From assembly GCA_022824945.1 (NCBI GenBank), contig JAJDYX010000012.1, forward strand, positions 1 through 64,000: DNA of 64,000 bases, in the 5' to 3' direction. Within the stretch, counting starts at the first letter, position 1, and every line of letters starts with the position of its first letter. Both the position numbers and the translations under genes were made by a program. Positions 1,150 to 12,977 of the stretch are shown here, one piece after another. Under the pieces are notes generated by a model, which was given only the letters and a program-made list of their open reading frames with translations, was not told the origin of the DNA and ran no database searches. This DNA is from Candidatus Latescibacterota bacterium (lineage in GTDB: Bacteria > Latescibacterota > UBA2968).

Positions 1150-1190
1150 CTGTTTCATTTGAAACACTTACTGTTTCGTTTGAAACAGTT
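1150..1190 (+). promoter_or_regulatory. Pair of parS-like palindromes, probable operator
   Basis: Two near-identical palindromes stand side by side: TGTTTCATTTGAAACA (1151-1166) and ACTGTTTCGTTTGAAACAGT (1170-1189). Their centres are 21 bp apart, two turns of B-DNA, so both would face the same side of the helix, as expected for cooperative binding. The arms match the arms of the ParB site parS (TGTTTCACGTGAAACA), but the central CG is missing. A ParB/Noc relative or a dedicated repressor of the operon at 1341 are both possible. Nothing else is seen between 923 and 1340 apart from the terminator and a weak promoter. Confidence 0.6.
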
Positions 1191-1261: not shown

Positions 1262-1289
1262 TTTTGGCACGGTTTTTGCACTGTATAAA
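1262..1289 (+). promoter_or_regulatory. Possible sigma-70 promoter for the recombinase operon
   Basis: TATAAA preceded by TG (an extended -10, at 1284-1289) lies about 50 bp before the first start codon. A poor -35 match (TTTTGG, 1262-1267) lies 16 bp upstream. The extended -10 is the main support. The palindrome pair lies about 70 bp further upstream. Confidence 0.4.
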
Positions 1290-1340: not shown

Positions 1341-1709
1341 ATGATTCACCAGTCACTCACCACCCGTCCAGCAGTACCATCCTCTACAGTCCCACCAAAA
1401 TCCCATCCTGAACCCGACGTCCTCGATGTCTTCGGTTCCAGATACAATGCGGTTCGGGAGCACTTTCAGCGCGTTCTCAGTCTCTCTGCGCCAGCGATGA
1501 TTGTCATTTTCGCGGTCTATGCGACGCTCGTGGATATGGCTCTATCATTCATGCTCGAGGCCATGCCGTTTTACTCGATTGCCGATGATGAGGCCGCGAA
1601 AGCCATCGACCCGAGGGCGATGATTGCCGACAAAGGATTATGGGTAACATTTATCGCGGCGATCTTCCTGGCGCCACTTCTCGAAACCCTGATAAAAAAG
1701 AATGTGTAA
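1341..1709 (+). CDS. Truncated CPBP-like membrane protein leading the recombinase operon
   Basis: This is a 122-residue protein with a proline-rich N-terminal tail and two hydrophobic helices (about residues 50-72 and 99-117). The second ends in FLAPLLETLI, which resembles the first glutamate motif of CPBP/Abi-type intramembrane proteases. The reading frame stops eight residues after that glutamate, where the family would normally carry more than 100 further residues with the remaining metal ligands. A good ribosome site (AGGAGG, nine bases upstream) suggests it is translated. It overlaps the next gene by 8 bp. It is either a decayed CPBP gene whose 3' part was replaced by the recombinase, or a small membrane partner. 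The protease family link rests on one motif. Confidence 0.5.
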   Translation: MIHQSLTTRPAVPSSTVPPKSHPEPDVLDVFGSRYNAVREHFQRVLSLSAPAMIVIFAVYATLVDMALSFMLEAMPFYSIADDEAAKAIDPRAMIADKGLWVTFIAAIFLAPLLETLIKKNV

Positions 1710-3285
1710 ACCTCTCAACCCCAGAGATATGCTTATGACACCACGATCATCCATACAGAAACTCCCAAAAGCTCTCGCGCAAGACGAGCTTGAAGCACTC
1801 AAATCCGTACGTATGAACCCGCGCGATCACGCGCTCATCACCGTCCTCGCGCGGTGTGGGTTGCGCGTATCCGAAGCGTGTTCGCTCATGGTTGACAATA
1901 TCTACTGGTCAACGGACACGCCGAGCCTTCGCTTAACGGGCAAGCGCGGCAAAGAGCGCGTTGTTCCGATGAACCAGGAGGTGCAGGACGTCCTCCGCGC
2001 GTGGCTGGAGTCCCGTCATTTTTCGGATTCTCCTTATGTCTTCTGCAATCTCCGTAACGGGCAGCAACTCAGCCGCAAGACGGTGTGGGCGGCCATGAAG
2101 ACCTACGCGCAGCGCGCGGGGATCCGCCACGTTCATCCGCACATGCTCAGGCACACCTTCGGCACGGACTTGGCAGATCGGGATGTGCCGGTCGAGCGCA
2201 TCAAAGACCTGATGGGGCATTCGTCTATTGATACGGCGTCCATCTACATTTCTGTGAGTGACGAGCAAAAGCGACGTTCTGTTGATCGCATTGACCGCAG
2301 GTCGCGGTTGTCGCGGTGGTGGTCGCGCCTGAAGAATCGCGATTACAGATTTTCCGCGCGGCCGAAAAAGCAGTTGCGTATCGGGATGGGGGAGACTGTG
2401 GGACGCGATGAAGAATTGTGCCAGCTAAAAGACAACTTGAGTAAGGGTATTGATACACTATTGCTCGGCCCGATCGGCGTGGGCAAAAGTTATTTGCTCG
2501 CGTTGCTCAACGCAGAAAACGCGCTCAAAGTGAAGACGTTGACGCCAGCGAAAGAGAGCCTGATAAATATTGCGAAGGAGCTTCACAAAATAGGAAGGCT
2601 TTGCCCGAATGGTCCGGAAAGTGCCAAATCCAATAATCCGTGCCATCCGCGTAATCTGTCTCATCCGCGATCAGATTTTGAAACGTTCAAAAAGCAACAC
2701 ACTCGCACGACCATTCAGAGCTGGACCGATATGGTGCTCAACTCGGTGGAGAAAGACGAGTTCGTTTTAATTGTGGATGATCTGTCGGATATGACCGCCT
2801 CCATCGGGCGACTGATCGACAAACTCAACAGCAAGTTCACTATTATCGCGGCCCTGCCTGAAGTGCGGAAGCCTTATGAGAAGCACTTCTGGAAGTTCGA
2901 CCGTGTAGAAATAGAGCGCTTATCTACCGCGGACTCGAAAAAACTCATCCGCCAGTGTACTGCTGGCGCCAATATAGAAGACTATCGAATGACCGAGACG
3001 AATATTTTGCAACAGAGTGCTGGCAATCCGCGTGCCATCATTGAGATTGTGGAACGGTTTCGGAAAGAACCGGCGGTGACTCGGTCCGTGGTGCGAGATG
3101 TGTTGCACACGGGCGCGCGAAACCAGATCGATCTTACGTTCGCCGTGGTGCTGCTTTTGCTGGCCGTGGTCGCAGCGCGATTCTTCATGCGCGGTATCGG
3201 AAGTATGGAGGGTTATGTGCTGGCTGGCATCGGCAGCGCGCTTCTGGTGGGCATTCGATTCTTTATGTACAGGTTCAAACGATGA
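1702..3285 (+). CDS. Tyrosine recombinase catalytic domain fused to AAA ATPase and C-terminal membrane anchor
   Basis: This 527-residue fusion has three parts. Residues about 20-195 are an XerC/D-type catalytic domain with all expected residues: Arg55 (GLRVSE), Lys81, His147-x-x-Arg150 (HMLRH), His173 (MGHSS) and nucleophile Tyr182. The usual N-terminal core-binding domain is missing. Residues about 230-460 form a P-loop ATPase with Walker A LLGPIGVGKS (254-263) and Walker B FVLIVDD (354-360). Residues 477-496 and 503-522 are two hydrophobic helices. Residues 309-324 are encoded by a 9-bp repeat family. The first ATG (1702) overlaps the previous gene; ATG 1735 is an alternative start. It overlaps the next gene by ATGA. 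The combination implies DNA strand exchange controlled at the membrane by ATP; that role is inferred. Confidence 0.8.
   Translation: MCKPLNPRDMLMTPRSSIQKLPKALAQDELEALKSVRMNPRDHALITVLARCGLRVSEACSLMVDNIYWSTDTPSLRLTGKRGKERVVPMNQEVQDVLRAWLESRHFSDSPYVFCNLRNGQQLSRKTVWAAMKTYAQRAGIRHVHPHMLRHTFGTDLADRDVPVERIKDLMGHSSIDTASIYISVSDEQKRRSVDRIDRRSRLSRWWSRLKNRDYRFSARPKKQLRIGMGETVGRDEELCQLKDNLSKGIDTLLLGPIGVGKSYLLALLNAENALKVKTLTPAKESLINIAKELHKIGRLCPNGPESAKSNNPCHPRNLSHPRSDFETFKKQHTRTTIQSWTDMVLNSVEKDEFVLIVDDLSDMTASIGRLIDKLNSKFTIIAALPEVRKPYEKHFWKFDRVEIERLSTADSKKLIRQCTAGANIEDYRMTETNILQQSAGNPRAIIEIVERFRKEPAVTRSVVRDVLHTGARNQIDLTFAVVLLLLAVVAARFFMRGIGSMEGYVLAGIGSALLVGIRFFMYRFKR
2633..2675 (+). repeat. Degenerate 9-bp tandem repeat inside a coding sequence
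   Basis: Four units resembling TCATCCGCG (one reads CCATCCGCG, the last TCATCCGCG) lie in frame inside the ATPase domain and encode the stretch NPCHPRNLSHPRSDF. The same family occurs between genes at 52991-53034. Because the unit is 9 bp, insertion does not shift the frame. Confidence 0.65.
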
Positions 3286-4475
3286 CTGCACCGACTCACA
3301 TTGCATTTGGGCTGCTCACGGTGGCGAGTTCCTTCTCGCTCTTTTCCATGTCCATTCACCGCAATCTTCCCGCGGTCGCAGGCGCGATCATAGGGAGCCT
3401 GCTTCCGGATGTAGATTCGCCGAGAAGTTATATTGGCCGGGTGATGCCCTTTGCTTCCATTCCGATTGAGCGGCGATGGGGGCATCGCACGATTACGCAT
3501 TCGCTGCTCTGTATGTTCGCTCTATCAGTTGTCACCTTGCCCTTGCTTGCCTATCAAACCGCGTGTTATGCGGCCATACTATTGGGGTATATGAGCCACC
3601 TGATCGCCGATAGTGCGACCAAAAGCGGCGTGCCTTTGTTTTATCCCCATACTGCGGTTTGTGTTTTTCCCGGTAGTGCGAGGTACAGGGTCAAAACCGG
3701 ATCCCTCCTGGGGGAGGGTACTGTATTGGCCGTGGTTGTCATACTGCTCCTATTGTTCATGCCCATATCGAACATGGGCGGTATCTGGCGATCGTTCAGA
3801 TATCTGATGGCGACGCCTTCGGCCGCTTATGCAGATTATCGGAGGGCCAATACAGAAACCTATTTGAATTTTGAAGGACAATGGCGACACACGCGGGAGA
3901 AGGTGTGGGGAAAAGCTCTGATCCTCGATGCCAGGCCCGCCTGGTTCTGGATCTTTTTCGATGGGCGGGTTCTGACGTGTGGAGAACACGGTGCCATTTT
4001 GCCGGATAAGGTGCGCGTGGAGGAGACGGATCGACCCGTGGAAATACAGATGATCCGGTTGAAAGACGAGACCTATCAGGAACTGGTAGAGCGGATCCCG
4101 AAAAATAGTTTTGTGTCTGGACTGCTCGAGGCAGATGCTTCTTTCGAAGTTGAGGAGGAAGATTTTCCGAGCAGTGCTGTCAGTTTCACTACCCGGAAAA
4201 TTGAATTCAATTTTGCCCAAAAAAAGGAGATTTTGCGGTTTCAGCCCGTTTTGAGAGGTCTCTCTGAGCGTGTAAAAGATTTGTTAAGGCAGAAGCAAGA
4301 GGTTTTTGAGAAATTGGAAATCTTAAAAATGGCTTATCCGCCCGTTCACTACCTGAAACTGGAACAAGTTGAGAGAGAACAGGCGGAAAAGGAGAAAGAG
4401 ATCGAGGCTCTGAAACGCAAAAACGTGCGATTCAGGGGTATGTTGCGTATTCGTCTGACAGGAGATCAACTATGA
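3282..4475 (+). CDS. YdjM-like inner-membrane metal-dependent hydrolase with coiled-coil tail
   Basis: The first 190 residues match the YdjM/DUF457 family (PF04307): an N-terminal THIAFGLL, then GSLLPDVDSP, GHRTITHSL and YMSHLIADSATKSGVP, which carry the family's conserved His and Asp residues between hydrophobic helices. YdjM-type proteins are membrane-bound and predicted to be metal-dependent hydrolases of unknown substrate. The roughly 200-residue C-terminal extension is unusual: a mixed region followed by a charged, heptad-like segment (about 310-385) likely to form a coiled coil. Its ATG overlaps the recombinase stop codon and its own stop overlaps the next start, so translation is probably coupled along the operon. 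Confidence 0.75.
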   Translation: MTAPTHIAFGLLTVASSFSLFSMSIHRNLPAVAGAIIGSLLPDVDSPRSYIGRVMPFASIPIERRWGHRTITHSLLCMFALSVVTLPLLAYQTACYAAILLGYMSHLIADSATKSGVPLFYPHTAVCVFPGSARYRVKTGSLLGEGTVLAVVVILLLLFMPISNMGGIWRSFRYLMATPSAAYADYRRANTETYLNFEGQWRHTREKVWGKALILDARPAWFWIFFDGRVLTCGEHGAILPDKVRVEETDRPVEIQMIRLKDETYQELVERIPKNSFVSGLLEADASFEVEEEDFPSSAVSFTTRKIEFNFAQKKEILRFQPVLRGLSERVKDLLRQKQEVFEKLEILKMAYPPVHYLKLEQVEREQAEKEKEIEALKRKNVRFRGMLRIRLTGDQL

Positions 4476-5200
4476 TATACAACGCGATGTTTCTGTGCGG
4501 CCTGTTCCTCATGCTCGTTGCCGCAAGGGCCAGCGCAGAAGAACTGATGTTGCGGGCGCCTTTAGTACCTGCGCGATCGGCGACGGTCTATGCCGGGATG
4601 AACGCGCGGATGCAGCGGGTCAATTTCGAGGTGGGAGACCGGGTGGTCAAAGGGGATACCCTCATGGTATTATCCCGCCGAGATCTGCGCGTGAAGGAAG
4701 CCGCGGCTCGAATTACACTGAAGAAAGCCCAGACCTTGCAAGCGCGATTGGAAATATTGCACAATAAGAAACTGATCAGTGACCAGCAGTTCGAAAATGT
4801 CCGCTTCGATGCCGAGGTCGCACACTACAACTGGGTTGCCGCGCGTATGGAACTGGACAGAACCGCAATCATCGCACCCCAGGACGGGTTGGTGGTTGAG
4901 GTCAATGTAAAGGCAGGTGACTGGATACTGGCCTACTCCGCGGTCGCGCGGATCATCGACCCCATGGATCTTCAGGTGTTTATGTTTGTGTCCGAGGGCA
5001 GGCTGAACGCGATCCATAAGAATATGCCGCTGTCTGCCGTGCTGACCGCTGGCGGAAAGCGCACGTTGCCCGGGCGCATTGTCGGGATCAGTCCTGTTAT
5101 TGATCCGGAAAATGGGACGTGCAAAGTAACAGGTCTTTTTTTGAATGCGGGAAAATACGTCCGCCCCGGTGCCCTGGTCAATGTGACCATCGGAAGGTGA
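4472..5200 (+). CDS. HlyD/RND-type periplasmic adaptor protein
   Basis: This is a 242-residue protein with an N-terminal signal peptide (cleavage near ARASA). It continues with a biotinyl-lipoyl-like beta segment (VNFEVGDRVVKGDTLMVL), a short alpha-helical hairpin (about 80-125), the second lipoyl half (TAIIAPQDGLVVEVNVKAGDWI) and a beta-barrel region ending in VRPGALVNVTI. This is the order of membrane-fusion proteins that link inner-membrane exporters to outer-membrane channels. It is shorter than usual and no transporter gene lies beside it. Its start overlaps the YdjM-like gene by 4 bp, so it is the last member of the recombinase operon. Confidence 0.8.
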   Translation: MIYNAMFLCGLFLMLVAARASAEELMLRAPLVPARSATVYAGMNARMQRVNFEVGDRVVKGDTLMVLSRRDLRVKEAAARITLKKAQTLQARLEILHNKKLISDQQFENVRFDAEVAHYNWVAARMELDRTAIIAPQDGLVVEVNVKAGDWILAYSAVARIIDPMDLQVFMFVSEGRLNAIHKNMPLSAVLTAGGKRTLPGRIVGISPVIDPENGTCKVTGLFLNAGKYVRPGALVNVTIGR

Positions 5201-6475: not shown

Positions 6476-8467
6476 ATGGCTCTTGATATACAAAATATTC
6501 AGACAGAAGCAGATGATGCGAGTTCACAACCCGCAGTAACATTGCGTGCTGTGGGATTGGGAGTATTTCTCGTCATTGCCCTCGATCTGCTGGCTATGTA
6601 TGTGCGCTATATCTTGCACGCTTCGCTGATGACGTATAGCCACATCCCAATGGCTATGTTGATCATTTTGATGATTCTGATGATTGGACTCGCCATTGTT
6701 GCCAAAATGACCGGCTGGGTGCTCTCAAAAGGCGAATGGCATGCAATTCTGGCGATGGGTCTTGTGGGCGCAGCACTGCCGTGTTTTGGCCTGACGGGCT
6801 ATGTTATCGGCTATATCACGGCACCTTATTATTTTGCGACAGAAGAAAATCAGTGGGCTGAGCACTTGCACCCGCATTTGCCCAACTGGCTCTTGCCGAG
6901 CCACGAGGGCAATGCCGTTGCGTGGTTTTACGAAGGCTTGCCGGGTGGTGCAGAGATTCCATGGGGCGTGTGGATATTGCCCCTGTTCTGGTGGACGACG
7001 GTTATAGCTGCGGCTTTTTTGATGCTGGCCTGTGTGGCCACTGTTTTTAGAAAACAATGGGTACAAAACGAACGCCTTGTTTTTCCCGCAATGGCGCCGT
7101 TGATCGATATGACTTCTGAACCGGGCGATGGAGAGGGGTGGTTGCCCGAGTTTATGCGCAATCGCTTGTTCTGGATCGGATTTGCCATTGCGTTTGGTGT
7201 GCTGGCCTGGAATTGTATCAATTACTTTTTGCCGGGCTTTCCGCGTTTTCCCATTTATCGGTCGCGCTGGTACTGGATTGATCGCCAACTGCCGCCTATC
7301 AGGGGATACTTTGGCATTTTTACTATACTTTTTTCCTATTTTGCCAGCCTGGATGTTCTGTTTTCAATCTGGTTTTTTGATCTGGTGTTCATCTTTGAGG
7401 GCGGCCAGCTCAGCAAGTGGGGCTATAAAGCCACCACGCCTTATTATCGCACGGGTGTTTATTACTGGCAGACTTTTGGGGCTTTTGTCGTTTTTGTGGG
7501 ATCGACATTCTGGGTAGCGAGAAAACATTTGCGCGATGTGTTGATGAAGGCACTCGGAAGGGATCCCACAGTGGATGACTCCGAGGAATTGATGTCTTAT
7601 CGCGCCGCTTGTATCGGTCTGCTGTGCAGCATAGCGTATTTGTTTATCTGGCTGACGCAGATGAATTTCGATCCGTTTAAAGGGTTTTTATATATTCTGG
7701 CAGCGATTTTTGTCTATACGGGTATGGCGAAGATCCTCGCCGATACCGGCATGCCATTTGCGAGCAAACCCATTGGTTCCTGGAGTATGGTCGCCTCGTT
7801 TTACGGCAGGCGCAATATCTCGCTTTCCACCCTTGTCGCTTTTCGCTTTTCCGCGCTGATTAACGAGAATTTTAAGGGCTTGTTTATGCCCGCGCTTTCC
7901 CATGCCGGGCGCGTTTCCGAGGGCGTTCCCGGCAATCAGCGGCGGCGGTTGATGGGGGCACTTGGGCTGGTATTTATGGTCAGTTTGTTGTTCAATATGC
8001 TGTTTACCGTGTGGTTGGGGTACGATCAAGGGGCTTATAATTTCAACAGTTGGGAGATCACACGGGCAGCGGAACGCCATTTTCAGAGCACGGTTGACGC
8101 ACTCAAAAAACCCGATGAACCGCCATTTTACGAGGAACATCCCGAACAAGCGGTGTTTTTGGGTATTGGTGGCCTTTTGATGGCCGGGTTGATCTATATG
8201 CGCTATCGCTTTGTGTGGTGGCCGCTGCATCCCGTGGGGCTGGCGATTTCGGGTTCTTATCTGGCTCGACGCACCAGCTTTACAACTTTTCTCGCCTGGT
8301 TGATTAAGTTTGTTATCATAAAAGTGGGCGGGCCAACGGTTTATCGCAAATCGAGACCTCTGTTCATCGGTTTGCTCGTCGGATATATTCTCGGCGTGGC
8401 TTTGTCACTGGGAATCGACATGATCTGGTTCCCGGAACGCGGGCATTGGGTACATCGCTATGGATAA
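6476..8467 (+). CDS. OPT-like polytopic membrane protein (DUF6785/DUF6784 type)
   Basis: This is a 663-residue integral membrane protein with about 13 hydrophobic helices and a short polar N-terminus. Features such as LKADTGMPF-like segments (KILADTGMPFASKPIGSW), NENFKGLFMPALSHAGRV and the C-terminal HPVGLAISGSY-WPLHP region resemble the DUF6785/DUF6784 group related to oligopeptide transporters. The transported substrate is unknown. The gene is first in a three-gene set: its end overlaps the start of the peptidase-permease fusion by 8 bp, and a second OPT-like gene closes the cassette. The start codon lacks a ribosome site, so ATG 6476 is chosen because it gives the full first helix. Confidence 0.6.
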   Translation: MALDIQNIQTEADDASSQPAVTLRAVGLGVFLVIALDLLAMYVRYILHASLMTYSHIPMAMLIILMILMIGLAIVAKMTGWVLSKGEWHAILAMGLVGAALPCFGLTGYVIGYITAPYYFATEENQWAEHLHPHLPNWLLPSHEGNAVAWFYEGLPGGAEIPWGVWILPLFWWTTVIAAAFLMLACVATVFRKQWVQNERLVFPAMAPLIDMTSEPGDGEGWLPEFMRNRLFWIGFAIAFGVLAWNCINYFLPGFPRFPIYRSRWYWIDRQLPPIRGYFGIFTILFSYFASLDVLFSIWFFDLVFIFEGGQLSKWGYKATTPYYRTGVYYWQTFGAFVVFVGSTFWVARKHLRDVLMKALGRDPTVDDSEELMSYRAACIGLLCSIAYLFIWLTQMNFDPFKGFLYILAAIFVYTGMAKILADTGMPFASKPIGSWSMVASFYGRRNISLSTLVAFRFSALINENFKGLFMPALSHAGRVSEGVPGNQRRRLMGALGLVFMVSLLFNMLFTVWLGYDQGAYNFNSWEITRAAERHFQSTVDALKKPDEPPFYEEHPEQAVFLGIGGLLMAGLIYMRYRFVWWPLHPVGLAISGSYLARRTSFTTFLAWLIKFVIIKVGGPTVYRKSRPLFIGLLVGYILGVALSLGIDMIWFPERGHWVHRYG

Positions 8468-11400
8468 ATATTACAAGCTCATTGTGTGGAGTCTTATCGG
8501 TCTGGGGATTTTTGTCACCGCGCTCCTGATTGCCGGTCCCTATCGCGTAAATCCCCGTATAGCTACTTTGTTGGGATTGGAAACGCCCGGCGAGGTTCCT
8601 CCTGTGCCCGTTCCTCGCGCAGAAGAAGTGGGGACACGGGTTTTGGATGCCGTGCGCGAAGATGGGATTCGCACGTTGATGGAGCAATTCACGCAACACG
8701 AATCGCGCGTGGTGGGTTATGAGGGGCACGAAAAAACCGCGGATTTTATAGAATCTGAATTCCGGCGTTTTGGCATGGAAGACGTAGAAGCCGAGACCTA
8801 TGGCGTGGCCGTGCCCATAGACCAGGGCGGCAGCTTAATGGTGGAAGATACCGGCGAGGTTTTTACCATTCACGGCTTGTGGCCCAATCTGGTCAAGACG
8901 ACCACCTTGCCCACAGGTGGTGTGCGGGGGCATCTCTTGTGGGGAGGCACTGGCGATGTGTCGGAATTTAATGGGCGCGATATAGAGGGCGCGGTGCTGT
9001 TGATGGAATTTAATTCGTGGAACAACTGGCTCAACGCCGCCATGCTCGGCGCGCAGCAGATTGTATTTATCGAACCCGATTCCACGTTTACCGCGCAGGC
9101 AGAGACCAAATTTTTGCAGGTACCCAATAGTGTTGAGCGTTTCTGGATTGATAGGCAGAGCGGCGAACGGCTCAAGGCTTTGCTCGCGCAAAAGGATGAG
9201 GTCAATGTCACTTTGAAGGCGCGAATGGATTGGGAAAAGAAAGAGACCCGGAATATTCTGGGCTGGATTCGCGGAACCGATCCCGTATTGAGCGAAAAAA
9301 TCGTGGTGATCAATACGTATTACGATGCGATGTCCGTAGTGCCAGCACTCGCGCCAGGCGCAGAGATGGCGTGTGGGATTGTGGGCTTGATGAAGTTGGT
9401 CGAATATTTCAGCAAGTACCCGCCCAAACACACGCTTTTATTTCTCGCATCTTCTGGGCATCATCTCGGCTTCAGAGGTATTTGCGATTTTTTGAGCAGG
9501 CATTCGCGCAAAGAAAAGCATTTTGCAGCATTGATGACAGAACCTCTCGAGTTGCCGCTGTTGATTTCTCTGGATTTGACGAGCCAGACAGATGAAATCG
9601 GGGTCTGGAACAGTACGCGCAATTATTATTACAAGCGTTTCTTTACGCCATTTGGCAAGTCGCTTGTGCATTATTCAGAGGCGATAGCCGAGCGATTTGA
9701 ACTGGATCCCGCCGATGCTCTCATCGATGGGATCAATCCAAAAGGCGGCATGAACTGGGATATGTATATTCCGGGGAAAGTTCTGAAAACAGATGGCGAG
9801 GTCGTTTTGGAAGCGGGTACGCCAGCGCTATCGCTCATTACGGTCAACGACGCGCGTTTTAGAGTAGATACGCCGCTGGATAAATCCGAACATGTAAATT
9901 TCAAAAATCTCACCGGACAGGTACGCCTGCTTGCCGGTGTGCTCGATCTCGGGTTAAATTCAGAAGATTTTTTGCCCGATTACAAGTTGGATCCCGACGA
10001 TCGTATGCGCGGTTTACAGGGGTTTGTACGCACATTTCCCCGCCTGAGCATTACACCTGATCGTCCCCGTCCCGGTGCTGTGGCTTCGCTGCGAATGGGC
10101 AATGACAAATCGATTAAAGGCGTACGCCGCGTCTATTACGACATTGCCGATGAAAATGGCGAATTTTACATGCCGGGCATTGCAGAACGCCGCGTGGATG
10201 TGAAGGCCTTTTATATGGATCCGGAAAGTGGGGAGATTACGTACGCGCCCAATCACGGTCGCCAGGCGCGCATATACCGGGGTGAGTTTAATATGGACTG
10301 GTGGATATCCAAGCGCACGCGGATATTGTTCCCGTGTGTTGCAACGGATTTTTACGATACAGTCGATCCCCGTTATCTCACCAAGTTGTCGAGCATCAGT
10401 GTGCTCGGTCCCGGCAATACTGCGCCACAGGAATACGGCTATGCCATTGGTTTTGGTCCAGAAGAACCGGTGGGAACCATTTTTACAACGCCGGGTGAAC
10501 GAATCAAAATTGTGATGCGGGAGCGAGAGATCGGCGTACGCTATTTGTTGTTGAACTCAAAGAGCGCGGAAAGTGTGGAAGTCGCGCGCGGTGATGGGTT
10601 TCAGATTTTGCAACACGGGGGGGCGTTTATTCGCTCTTCGTTCCAGGCCGCAAAAGATATGTGGACGCTGAATGAGGCGCGGATGCGCGAATTGGAGAAG
10701 TATTCGATTGAGAACCAGCGGATGACCAATTTGCACGACCAGGCCAAATACCATCTGGATTTGGCTGAAGAAGCGATGCAAGACAAGAAATGGGATTTGT
10801 TTGTCAAACACACACGCGCGGCGATGGGCCTCGAATCGCGTGCCTATCCAGACGTAAAATCAACGCAAAACGATGTAATTCGAGGCGTGATTTTCTTTAT
10901 GATACTGGTTATTCCGTGTGCGTTTTTTGTCGAGCGGTTGCTTTTTACCTTTTCCGATATCCGGGTACAAATCGGCGGTTTTAGCGCGGCTTTTGTGGTG
11001 ATCTGGATCGTTCTTTCGCAGGTGCATCCCGCTTTTGATCTCTCCAATCCGTTTGTGATTTTGCTGGCTTTTGTGATTTTGGCACTGGCGATTTTTGTGA
11101 TTTCCATTGTGTCGGGGCGGTTTCACGACAATATCCGCCAACTGCGCACAGAAGAGGTGTTGTTGCACGATACGGATGTGGGGCGGATCAGCGCGTCCGT
11201 AGCAGCATTTCAGTTGGGCATTGCGAATATGAAAAAGCGCAAAATGCGTACCAGCCTGACATTTGCTACGCTGGTTTTGTTGACATTTACCGTGTTGTCC
11301 TTTACGTCGATCAAGACGACGCTCGATTTTCATCAACTTCCGCTGGATGATACCGAAGGCAAGTATCCGGGGCTGTTGATCCGCAGCCAATTCTGGGGGC

Positions 11401-12977
11401 CGCTGGAGGATACGGCTTATGATTATGCCCGAATCAATTTTTTTGATCAGGGTGAGATCGCGCCGCGCAGTTGGTATGTTACGCGGGACCTGAAAAAGAC
11501 GCCTATTGAAACGCCGGAAAAATCGACCAAAGTGCTGGGGATAGTGGGACTATCGGTTAATGAACCCGCGGTCACGGGGATCGATACCTTGTTGAGCCAT
11601 GGGCGTTGGTTTGAAGAGGGTGAGATCGCGTGTATTTTGCCTGGTAAAATAGCCGGATTGCTCCAGGTGGAACCTGAAGATGTCGGCAAAAAGAGCGTGC
11701 GCTTATTTGGCAAACAATTGAAAGTCGTGGGGTTGATCGATGCGGAAAAAATGCGCGATCTCAAGGACCTGGATGGCGAAATTTTAAGCCCGGCAGATTT
11801 TAAGCTGACGGATGATGAGATCATCTCGCAGATGACCCAGTCAGAGAGTCGCGAAAAACAGGGTCTGGAACAGCCTCAACTCGAGAATATGCCATTCGAG
11901 CATATAGATCCGGACGATATTGCCATTATTCCCTATAAGATATTGCGCGAAGTGGGCAGCCCTCTGCAATCTGTGGCAATTCGTTTGCGCGAAGATATAA
12001 ATGTTGAAGAACAGGTCAAAGAATATGTGTCGCGGTTATCGGTGGTTGTGTACGCGGGCATTCCTGGGGAAGATGGCAAAATCCATGTGTCAATTTACAG
12101 TTCGCTGGGATGGGGTCCATTGCCTGGCCTTGCCAATTTGTTTGTTCCCATTCTGGTGGCTGCGTTGATTGTGCTCAATACGATGATGGGGTCGGTGTAC
12201 GAGCGTTTCCGCGAGATTGGTATTTATTCTGCTGTGGGATTGGCACCTGTACACATCTCTTTTTTGTTTATTGCCGAGGCGTGCGTTTATGCTGTGTTGG
12301 GGACTGTATCGGGGTATTTGCTCGGTCAAGGCGTGATCAAAATTTTGTTGTGGCAGGAGTTGTTGCAAGGGCTTAATGTGAATTATTCGGCATTGTCAAC
12401 GGTGATTTCTTCGGCACTGGTAATGGTCGTGGTTTTGATTTCGTCGCTCTATCCCGCGCGTCAGGCGGCACTTATGGCTGTGCCCGATGTGACGCGCCGC
12501 TGGAAGTTGCCCGATCCGGAAGGCGATCACTGGCATTTTGAGTTTCCATTTACTGTGGGCGGTAAAGACGTGTTTGGGCTGTCGGTATTTCTGGTGGATT
12601 ATTTCGAGTCGCACATGGGCGAGTCCATGGGCGCGTTTTACACAGATGGCGCGCGGTTCGGTTCAGTAGAAGCAGCAACCGGCGCGGGATATACGATTGA
12701 TACGACAATCTGGTTGGCGCCTTATGATTTGGGTGTGAGTCAACAGGTGCATTTTGAAGCCGTGCCCACAGGCGAGCACAATATTTTTTCGATGACTCTG
12801 ACAATAGATCGGCTTTCGGGCGATGTGGCATCGTGGCGGCGGGGCAATCAGGGCTTTATGAACGCGCTTCGCAAACAGTTCTTGATCTGGCGAACAGTTG
12901 ATCCAACGAATCGCGCCAAATATACAGATAAAGGACGGGAATTGCTCTCTGCTTCCACAGCAGCGGTCAACGCATAG
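8460..12977 (+). CDS. Giant fusion: degenerate M28-type peptidase domain plus FtsX/MacB-like permease
   Basis: This protein has 1505 residues. Helix 1 (about 7-27) anchors an extracytoplasmic N-terminal half resembling M28 aminopeptidases with a PA-type insert. The expected zinc and catalytic residues are replaced: the family's H-x-D is YYD (287-289), the bridging Asp region is GAEMACG (300-306) and the catalytic Glu pair is SGHHLG (332-337). Three helices follow near 865-940, then a permease module starting KKRKMRTSLTFATLVLLTF, an extracytoplasmic loop, and a FtsX-type C-terminal bundle with SVYERFREIGIYSAVGL and the exit motif LYPARQAA. A C-terminal beta-rich domain ends the protein. No ABC ATPase gene is adjacent. 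It probably binds rather than cleaves peptides; that is inferred from the lost residues. Confidence 0.7.
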   Translation: MDKYYKLIVWSLIGLGIFVTALLIAGPYRVNPRIATLLGLETPGEVPPVPVPRAEEVGTRVLDAVREDGIRTLMEQFTQHESRVVGYEGHEKTADFIESEFRRFGMEDVEAETYGVAVPIDQGGSLMVEDTGEVFTIHGLWPNLVKTTTLPTGGVRGHLLWGGTGDVSEFNGRDIEGAVLLMEFNSWNNWLNAAMLGAQQIVFIEPDSTFTAQAETKFLQVPNSVERFWIDRQSGERLKALLAQKDEVNVTLKARMDWEKKETRNILGWIRGTDPVLSEKIVVINTYYDAMSVVPALAPGAEMACGIVGLMKLVEYFSKYPPKHTLLFLASSGHHLGFRGICDFLSRHSRKEKHFAALMTEPLELPLLISLDLTSQTDEIGVWNSTRNYYYKRFFTPFGKSLVHYSEAIAERFELDPADALIDGINPKGGMNWDMYIPGKVLKTDGEVVLEAGTPALSLITVNDARFRVDTPLDKSEHVNFKNLTGQVRLLAGVLDLGLNSEDFLPDYKLDPDDRMRGLQGFVRTFPRLSITPDRPRPGAVASLRMGNDKSIKGVRRVYYDIADENGEFYMPGIAERRVDVKAFYMDPESGEITYAPNHGRQARIYRGEFNMDWWISKRTRILFPCVATDFYDTVDPRYLTKLSSISVLGPGNTAPQEYGYAIGFGPEEPVGTIFTTPGERIKIVMREREIGVRYLLLNSKSAESVEVARGDGFQILQHGGAFIRSSFQAAKDMWTLNEARMRELEKYSIENQRMTNLHDQAKYHLDLAEEAMQDKKWDLFVKHTRAAMGLESRAYPDVKSTQNDVIRGVIFFMILVIPCAFFVERLLFTFSDIRVQIGGFSAAFVVIWIVLSQVHPAFDLSNPFVILLAFVILALAIFVISIVSGRFHDNIRQLRTEEVLLHDTDVGRISASVAAFQLGIANMKKRKMRTSLTFATLVLLTFTVLSFTSIKTTLDFHQLPLDDTEGKYPGLLIRSQFWGPLEDTAYDYARINFFDQGEIAPRSWYVTRDLKKTPIETPEKSTKVLGIVGLSVNEPAVTGIDTLLSHGRWFEEGEIACILPGKIAGLLQVEPEDVGKKSVRLFGKQLKVVGLIDAEKMRDLKDLDGEILSPADFKLTDDEIISQMTQSESREKQGLEQPQLENMPFEHIDPDDIAIIPYKILREVGSPLQSVAIRLREDINVEEQVKEYVSRLSVVVYAGIPGEDGKIHVSIYSSLGWGPLPGLANLFVPILVAALIVLNTMMGSVYERFREIGIYSAVGLAPVHISFLFIAEACVYAVLGTVSGYLLGQGVIKILLWQELLQGLNVNYSALSTVISSALVMVVVLISSLYPARQAALMAVPDVTRRWKLPDPEGDHWHFEFPFTVGGKDVFGLSVFLVDYFESHMGESMGAFYTDGARFGSVEAATGAGYTIDTTIWLAPYDLGVSQQVHFEAVPTGEHNIFSMTLTIDRLSGDVASWRRGNQGFMNALRKQFLIWRTVDPTNRAKYTDKGRELLSASTAAVNA

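Follow-up and report, generated by a model that had tools for sequence, protein, structure and literature searches.

Within a window of 64,000 nucleotides (the whole stretch analyzed here, positions 1 to 64,000 of contig JAJDYX010000012.1 from a Candidatus Latescibacterota bacterium) lies a compact operon of four open reading frames (ORFs) at 1341-1709, 1702-3285, 3282-4475 and 4472-5200, all on the plus strand. Its central gene (gene 2, 1702..3285), delineated from the ORF, Pfam, orthologues and hydropathy, encodes in a single frame a tyrosine recombinase catalytic domain (1774..2265; Phage_integrase PF00589, 2.2e-39 over residues 25-188), a P-loop ATPase domain (2395..3130) of the AAA_16/AAA_22/STAND-like type with G-x-GK, DD (Walker B) and GNP motifs, and a C-terminal transmembrane hairpin (3133..3267) with helices placed by hydropathy at residues 478-496 and 504-522. 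The called start at 1702 is probably spurious, as 1729 or 1735 agrees with the orthologues. Gene 3 (3282..4475) encodes a YdjM-family membrane metal-dependent hydrolase, with the YdjM domain (PF04307; 3.4e-27, 95.5 bits against a gathering score of 29) in its N-terminal 164 residues and an extension of about 230 residues behind it. Gene 4 (4472..5200) encodes a HlyD/RND-type periplasmic adaptor with a hydrophobic segment at the N-terminus, matching HlyD_D23 in Pfam (8.7e-16) and RND_mfp in NCBIfam (1.4e-35, above cut-off). ATGA overlaps, read directly in the sequence, join genes 2 and 3 (3282-3285) and genes 3 and 4 (4472-4475). Gene 1 (1341..1709) is the decayed remnant of a CPBP (Rce1-like) membrane protease gene with its 3' part deleted: the window copy matches no family in a Pfam scan, and its counterpart in a sister genome (L034:7612-8250; L-numbers denote the sequence stretches compared, G-numbers the genomes and C after G a contig) encodes 212 residues, is 90% identical over the first 120 and matches the Pfam Rce1-like/CPBP family at 1.5e-8. 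The first-pass annotation of this locus had proposed a single-frame recombinase-ATPase-membrane fusion, overlapped by ATGA with a YdjM-like hydrolase and again with a HlyD-like adaptor, behind a truncated CPBP-like fragment, and all of these assignments are borne out. Its description of the recombinase catalytic domain as intact agrees with the R, K, H, R, H and Y residues, which are all kept; one correction is that the N-terminal (SAM-like) core-binding domain is absent, since no Pfam match to it was found in gene 2 and the alignment with XerD (1a0p) begins at 1a0p residue 97.

Sequence comparison indicates that this operon is not a chance arrangement, because its orthologues retain the gene order and show a low ratio of nonsynonymous to synonymous substitution rates (dN/dS) within the window's genus (hereafter the genus); in eight within-genus pairs the ratio was 0.12-0.27 for the recombinase and 0.10-0.16 for the ATPase. 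The ATPase occurs in 13 of 64 genomes of the phylum, representing 3 of 24 genera. Besides the window, recombinase and ATPase are found together at 11 loci in seven genomes (G001, G002, G009 and G010 once each, G003 and G039 twice, G031 three times), with identities to the window copy of 84-87% for five loci, 88-89% for two pieces of G003:C38 and, outside the genus, 48-52% for four loci in G031 and G039 and 49 and 59% for the pieces of G031:C48. Gene order is kept both in the genus and in another family. YdjM follows the ATPase in 19 among the window and the 20 stretches that carry an ATPase, the contig of L040 ending before this point, and HlyD comes next in most fused loci (it is truncated in L032, and the contigs of L030 and L040 stop short of this position). 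Outside the genus, the copies at L035, L039, L044 and L046 are followed by IstB/DnaC-like ATPase genes and helix-turn-helix-like ORFs. Genes for PilZ-domain proteins or sigma54 activators lie nearby, and each genome has several copies, on short contigs. No exact terminal overlap of at least 15 nt, as a sign of circularity, was found in five whole G031/G039 contigs.

Far beyond this phylum, the same core is carried by plasmids. A tblastn search with the ATPase domain alone returned 10 plasmid records, and the union of ATPase rows from several searches comprises 69, with a Desulfocapsa plasmid outside this count; the independent number is much smaller than 69 because many of them nearly duplicate one another within Synechocystis, Thermus or S. 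elongatus. In 62 of the 69 records YdjM is matched or annotated within 5 kb of the ATPase, and in 41 within 350 nt of the match ends; in four of the remaining records YdjM is 74 kb away and the ATPase fragmentary, and in three none is listed. The plasmid ATPase records span five bacterial phyla and one Thermococcus plasmid, to which Desulfocapsa adds one phylum, giving eight phyla in all with Latescibacterota and Desulfocapsa counted. The fusion with an adjoining YdjM gene is found on Flavobacterium, Haliscomenobacter (two) and Spirosoma plasmids. It also occurs on a Flammeovirga plasmid, with a short annotated YdjM 1.4 kb away, and on a Thiospirochaeta plasmid, where the gene spans the record start and YdjM lies about 4.5 kb away behind an IS110 gene. 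On Allochromatium, Methylobacter and Nitrosococcus plasmids the ATPase is unfused, with YdjM next to it or within about 650 bp; two Thermus plasmids have a single run of genes for the ATPase, a TolC-like protein and YdjM; on cyanobacterial plasmids YdjM comes after the ATPase (in pAQ5 the ATPase match falls in a hypothetical ORF); Thermococcus barophilus pTBMP1 encodes ATPase, YdjM and a NEW3-domain protein; and on the Desulfocapsa plasmid an Xer gene not fused to the ATPase begins an overlapping run that continues with a small ORF, the ATPase gene and YdjM. Across a spread of 40 of 163 plasmid records, YdjM matches outside module hosts cover no more than roughly a third of the query. The first-pass annotation had suggested a mobile element and had wondered whether the genes recur together in distant genomes or singly with unrelated neighbors, and whether the fusion is unique to this genome. 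Our data tie the module to mobile DNA, namely plasmids, with ATPase and YdjM paired across eight phyla and the fusion conserved on Bacteroidota and Spirochaetota plasmids, and we are highly confident that these genes constitute one co-conserved module.

The plasmids concerned are almost uniformly classed as non-mobilizable in PLSDB (10/10, 22/22, 46/48 and 24/24 ATPase-matched records in overlapping sets). Pooled, 102 of 104 rows, with overlapping records, are non-mobilizable and two conjugative by this typing, beyond which no relaxase or pilus search was made. In a search dominated by ordinary recombinases, 251 of 784 were non-mobilizable. A viral origin was considered and rejected, as no relative of the ATPase was found in IMG/VR (600 pattern matches checked) or in a phage collection. 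Two features of the plasmid neighborhoods are recorded here as side observations: on Anabaena sp. 90 pANA02 (L091 8142-11825) a diversity-generating retroelement (reverse transcriptase and Avd) and formylglycine-generating enzyme (FGE) genes come right after the module, and secreted-type nuclease genes (annotated as thermonuclease or DNA/RNA non-specific endonuclease) are present in 7 of 19 plasmid stretches (L078, L082, L085, L086, L087, L090 and L092), a count from stretches of unequal length with no background count.

The first-pass annotation had placed the recombinase at the heart of the system; comparison of sequences assigns that place to the pair of ATPase and YdjM, with the recombinase as a dispensable, accessory head, because it has been lost repeatedly while ATPase and YdjM stayed. 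The catalytic R-K-H-R-H-Y set is complete in the window copy, in 9 of the 11 other Latescibacterota fused copies and in five aligned plasmid copies, apart from Spirosoma, where the lysine column holds Q. Genomes G004 and G005 carry ATPase, YdjM and HlyD without the recombinase at the same chromosomal site, with the same FGE gene and downstream genes, and in G007, again at this site, genes 2 and 3 are reduced to fragments and HlyD is intact. A leader, MxHQSxxTRPAVPS (MTHPSPAPRPAVPS in L038), is kept and joined in frame at differing points: to the recombinase in L029-L033, where the CPBP body is lost; in L036 and L038 it leads into the ATPase. At the paralogous loci L041-L043 a shorter MxHQ leader precedes the ATPase and no HlyD is seen (L042 ends inside YdjM). 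In a tree of 30 ATPase domains the fused state changes five times, readable as one gain and four losses, and all Latescibacterota rows group with the fused Bacteroidota (support 94/92, slightly below the tree's star threshold). The recombinase tree (19 rows) has two changes, with one change in 10% of bootstraps, and does not resolve a single origin. Of the two trees, only that of the ATPase leans toward a single origin of the fused recombinase.

What accompanies the core at the cell envelope varies among hosts, as judged from gene content: HlyD here, a TolC-like protein in Thermus. An OEP/TolC domain is encoded on two Thermus plasmids (1.7e-9 and 3.6e-13); Picosynechococcus pAQ5 has one as well (8.2e-6), some 5 kb away from YdjM. 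On pSYSX a gene for a lipoyl-like protein follows the core (RnfC_N 7.6e-4, Biotin_lipoyl_2 0.0029), and the Thermus YdjM ends in lipoyl-like pieces (0.002), all below cut-off. Two Synechocystis plasmids and one S. elongatus plasmid carry an annotated DUF87/VirB4/HerA-like ATPase beside YdjM; the S. elongatus protein matches TrwB_AAD_bind (1.5e-10) and DUF87, both above cut-offs, and the pSYSX protein matches CedD (2.1e-12), HerA and CedB, all far below cut-offs. In Anabaena, a KfrA_N gene (2.1e-7) stands upstream of the module. The possible link to export made in the first-pass annotation is plausible, with the proviso that the envelope partners differ from host to host.

Following from these associations, we propose that at the window locus the chromosome has captured a copy of an envelope module which is borne by plasmids and acts on plasmid DNA at the envelope, a reading to which we assign a probability of about 40%. 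Its core would consist of a P-loop ATPase anchored in the membrane and a membrane metal hydrolase of the YdjM type, joined here by a periplasmic adaptor. The C-terminal hairpin might fix the ATPase in the inner membrane, with a DNA-engaging head on the cytoplasmic side, this head being here the Xer catalytic domain without core-binding domain and elsewhere perhaps a separate recombinase or the product of a KfrA-like gene. ATP could power the assembly or the action of a complex with YdjM, which would be taken across the envelope by the adaptor or, on other plasmids, by a TolC-like protein or VirB4/HerA-like pump. We infer complex formation, a direction of action and DNA as the substrate, with ATPase and YdjM forming one inner-membrane complex that would have envelope partners in diderm hosts. 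An envelope-spanning complex appears probable to us. DNA as its substrate is an even bet, to which the occurrence on plasmids, the partners that recombine or bind DNA and the pump of VirB4/HerA-like type all point. We tentatively favor export or cell-to-cell movement of this DNA over its anchoring and resolution, though as the bolder of the two readings and at well below even odds.

The plasmid setting could alternatively be read as one of maintenance, in which ATPase and YdjM tether the plasmid to the inner membrane and multimers are resolved there by the Xer head, as part of the same polypeptide as the ATPase. FtsK helping XerCD to resolve multimers offers an analogy, and this explanation gains from the plasmid association, from a recombinase fused to or adjoining the ATPase with its catalytic residues retained in most copies, from a ParA gene that two Thermus plasmids carry in divergent orientation to the ATPase, and from rep genes within about 5 kb on the Flavobacterium, Haliscomenobacter pHALHY01 and Flammeovirga plasmids. 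Nevertheless we find it rather improbable: HlyD, TolC-like or secreted partners are not needed for segregation, ParA is already present on several of the plasmids, and chromosomal copies with no plasmid to segregate retain ATPase and YdjM (and HlyD in G004 and G005) after loss of the recombinase.

In the genus, the module is probably switched on by a presumed NtrC-type activator together with sigma54. A sigma54 (-24/-12) promoter, TGGCACG-N4-TTGCA, lies at 1265..1280 on the plus strand, the only exact match in the window, and two 16-bp palindromes (TGTTTC-N4-GAAACA, 21 bp apart) found by motif scans at 1151..1187 on the same strand are probable enhancer (activator) sites, the window-wide chance of such palindromes at up to one mismatch being 0.22. 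The promoter precedes the start codon by 68-76 bp in 13 of 13 genus loci, and the same pattern is found in none of seven loci outside the genus, some of whose starts are approximate. Palindromes occur in 11 of the 13 genus loci, spaced by 21 bp where there are at least two; L029 and L042 have degenerate copies. Of 11 genus genomes, 9 have paired palindromes at this spacing (up to two mismatches), 20 loci in all, against none for a reversed-pattern control, and 19 of the 20 arrays precede module genes or their remnants (Rec-ATPase, ATPase, CPBP, HlyD or HlyD-YdjM). The lone exception, G010:C123, precedes a response-regulator-like ORF, and at three mismatches the window's own genome yields one more site with no module gene nearby. 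G008, in which the module is absent, has no array, and G009, in which it is present, has none at up to two mismatches. CPBP, Rec-ATPase, YdjM and HlyD look like one regulon, because arrays and sigma54 promoters precede CPBP, Rec-ATPase, ATPase, HlyD and HlyD-YdjM genes alike. Separate copies stand behind the same promoter and palindromes at G010:C113 (L114 6475-8506, HlyD-YdjM), G006:C147 (L115) and G001:C68 (L116), together comprising HlyD-YdjM, HlyD-only and CPBP types. A gene for an NtrC-type response regulator, 78-81% identical to that of L033, is located beside L029, L041, L043 and L117, with a piece in L030; none is adjacent to the window copy, the rest of that genome not having been searched for it. 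In the window its place is occupied by a possible insertion sequence remnant (1-190, read by eye, with a 32-base match elsewhere in the genome) and a 244-residue ORF (188-922) with no Pfam match above cut-off and no NCBIfam family.

A further alternative is a host operon for envelope export or repair, handling a peptide, lipid or solute, in which the recombinase would be a dispensable passenger from a plasmid past. A HlyD/RND adaptor and a CPBP protease within the same sigma54 regulon, the repeated recombinase loss and the NtrC-type regulator beside several loci are all consistent with it. So is a 1505-residue ORF at 8460-12977, about 3.3 kb downstream of the operon, with an FtsX-like ABC permease domain (4.8e-16) and, by eye, a peptidase-like N-terminal part, in a flank that is conserved at this locus in the genus. 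However, FGE, tRNA-Phe and DUF6785 genes separate FtsX from HlyD, and neither the second-site copy L034 nor the copies outside the genus have FtsX in their surroundings. Moreover, within the genus purifying selection acts on the recombinase, which is also kept across phyla, and the core pair sits on plasmids far beyond the genus. We consider a purely host-serving operon of this kind unlikely.

The domains themselves also invite comparison with defense or exclusion systems, a possibility raised in the first-pass annotation: a STAND-like ATPase could sense incoming DNA or phage and release a membrane-damaging YdjM hydrolase. The ATPase part of gene 2 is weakly matched by Pfam (AAA_16 0.0012, below cut-off), the ATPase has weak STAND-like (nSTAND, NACHT and NB-ARC) matches, and PADLOC reports weak mad8 matches in four plasmid ATPases (1.6e-7 to 2.7e-4) and PDC-S matches in the Thermococcus copy. 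YdjM retains residues resembling a metal site: H6, D43, D45, H68, R69, H73, D110 and E145 do not vary across 14 rows, which range from Latescibacterota to Thermococcus, all but R69 being presumed metal ligands, and there is a weak Zn-PLC match. Restriction-modification genes are near the module on several plasmids. Set against this, PADLOC has no model for the Rec-ATPase (gene 2) or HlyD (gene 4) and places YdjM at only 0.0072 against an unrelated model, and the single sigma54 regulon suggests regulated envelope work. To our knowledge, adaptors and VirB4/HerA-like pumps are unusual in defense systems. Defense accordingly has little support, and we judge it an unlikely function. An R-(Y/F)...G...Y pattern is common to the C-terminus of most of 11 ATPase rows, and hydropathy at one threshold gives two segments for the hairpin in the window copy and one each in Flavobacterium, Thermococcus and Desulfocapsa. 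The YdjM extension was modeled from a three-row alignment as beta-rich with a helical hairpin and a strand (predicted local distance difference test score, pLDDT, about 40-79 in the extension), and by eye it resembles an adaptor.

Several observations weigh against a plasmid-derived envelope complex acting on DNA. On the structural side, the predicted structure of gene 2 is poor (pLDDT 43) and unusable, and Foldseek with the YdjM model returned no match at E ≤ 0.001. Partners are also missing where they might be looked for: no VirB4/HerA-like gene was seen near the genus loci; the Bacteroidota stretches have no annotated adaptor or TolC gene, and a scan of two neighbors found none; a gamma-proteobacterial upstream ORF is TolC-like by eye only, with no OEP match and 1.9% in hhalign against the Thermus OEP protein; and hhalign of the Latescibacterota HlyD with the pSYSX lipoyl-like protein gave a non-significant probability of 4.5%. 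The module itself is not always whole, since no YdjM accompanies the L047 ATPase copy within its 18-kb stretch, HlyD is missing from the paralogous loci L041 and L043, and two fused copies have a damaged recombinase (L044 without HxxR, L037 without the first arginine motif in frame). The conserved FtsX-containing flank in the genus blurs the picture further, although neither it nor the damaged recombinases alter the odds given here. That the module has been kept on the chromosome under sigma54 control suggests that the cell makes use of it. Mobility may be under-called in cyanobacterial plasmids, and we know of no transfer or stability phenotype.

Two repeats within gene 2 deserve mention. The first-pass annotation had envisaged a phase-switching element with inverted repeats nearby, and an 18-nt inverted repeat (17/18) does flank the ATPase part, at 2324-2341 and 3176-3193. 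It was reached in 0 of 200 codon shuffles and is 17/18 in L031; it is probably no switch, because only 13/18 positions are kept in L029 and L030. With this internal repeat not conserved, and with upstream palindromes that are of activator type and persist where the recombinase is deleted, we rejected a DNA-inversion switch. Separately, a dispersed genomic repeat of the ATCCGCGTAATCTGT..TCATCCGCGA type forms an in-frame insertion in the linker between P-loop and Walker B (2635..2675, plus strand), adding linker residues; other copies are present in the window's own genome (L002-L007). It is missing from L029, L031 and L041-L043, present in L034 and shorter in L036.

As the first-pass annotation had supposed, no system of this composition seems to have been described: a full-text literature search, in which most subscription journals were not covered, found no description of the module. 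The gene cluster is real and conserved, and it is undescribed as far as this search reaches. Gene 2 shares with XerC, XerD and XerA the catalytic domain and the R-K-H-R-H-Y set, and differs from them in its fusion to a membrane ATPase and its lack of a core-binding domain; we take its recombinase part to be FimB/FimE-like in size. The plasmid ATPases resemble the XrtA/PEP-CTERM-associated ATPase TIGR03015 (2e-4 for pSYSX, 4.6e-5 for Thermococcus) and initiator-type AAA+ proteins (Hda, 2.4e-10 for the Thermococcus copy) weakly, far below cut-off, and in contrast to these and to ExeA/GspA-like (AAA_22) ATPases, the module ATPase has a C-terminal transmembrane hairpin and a YdjM partner. Gene 3 shares the N-terminal domain and H/D/E residues of other YdjM (PF04307) hydrolases and differs in its extension. 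With RND/HlyD-TolC tripartite export the module shares the adaptor and, in Thermus, an OEP protein, but it has no RND or ABC permease gene of its own, the FtsX-domain gene lying only in the flank, and has YdjM and another ATPase instead. The closest parallel in setting is the core module of the archaeal plasmid pT26-2, likewise a plasmid core of membrane proteins with a VirB4/HerA-like ATPase, for which, in the available part of the report, DNA secretion, transfer or spread by vesicles was proposed and its 12 proteins were stated to have no similarity outside their own family (PMC6972569). That part of the account describes neither YdjM nor a recombinase fusion (PMC6972569), the two modules being compared here by description. 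For pTBMP1, the available parts of two accounts contain no description of the ATPase-YdjM gene set (PMC3543421, PMC5126054).

A bolder view, which we hold doubtful, is that the plasmids carry a trans-domain DNA-transfer (or vesicle/DNA-export) machine with interchangeable DNA heads (Xer catalytic domain, separate recombinase or KfrA-like protein) and YdjM, lipoyl/TolC-type and, in cyanobacteria, VirB4/HerA-like partners on replicons classed as non-mobilizable, the Latescibacterota locus being, no less doubtfully, its domesticated, sigma54-controlled descendant. Many plasmids spread though they carry no recognized transfer genes. A conserved membrane module on plasmids typed as non-mobilizable makes testable how such plasmids are kept or moved, and its hosts include well-studied strains such as Synechocystis PCC 6803 (pSYSX), Thermus thermophilus and Picosynechococcus PCC 7002. 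The single-chain Xer-ATPase-membrane fusion would also be a new way of coupling site-specific recombination to the membrane.

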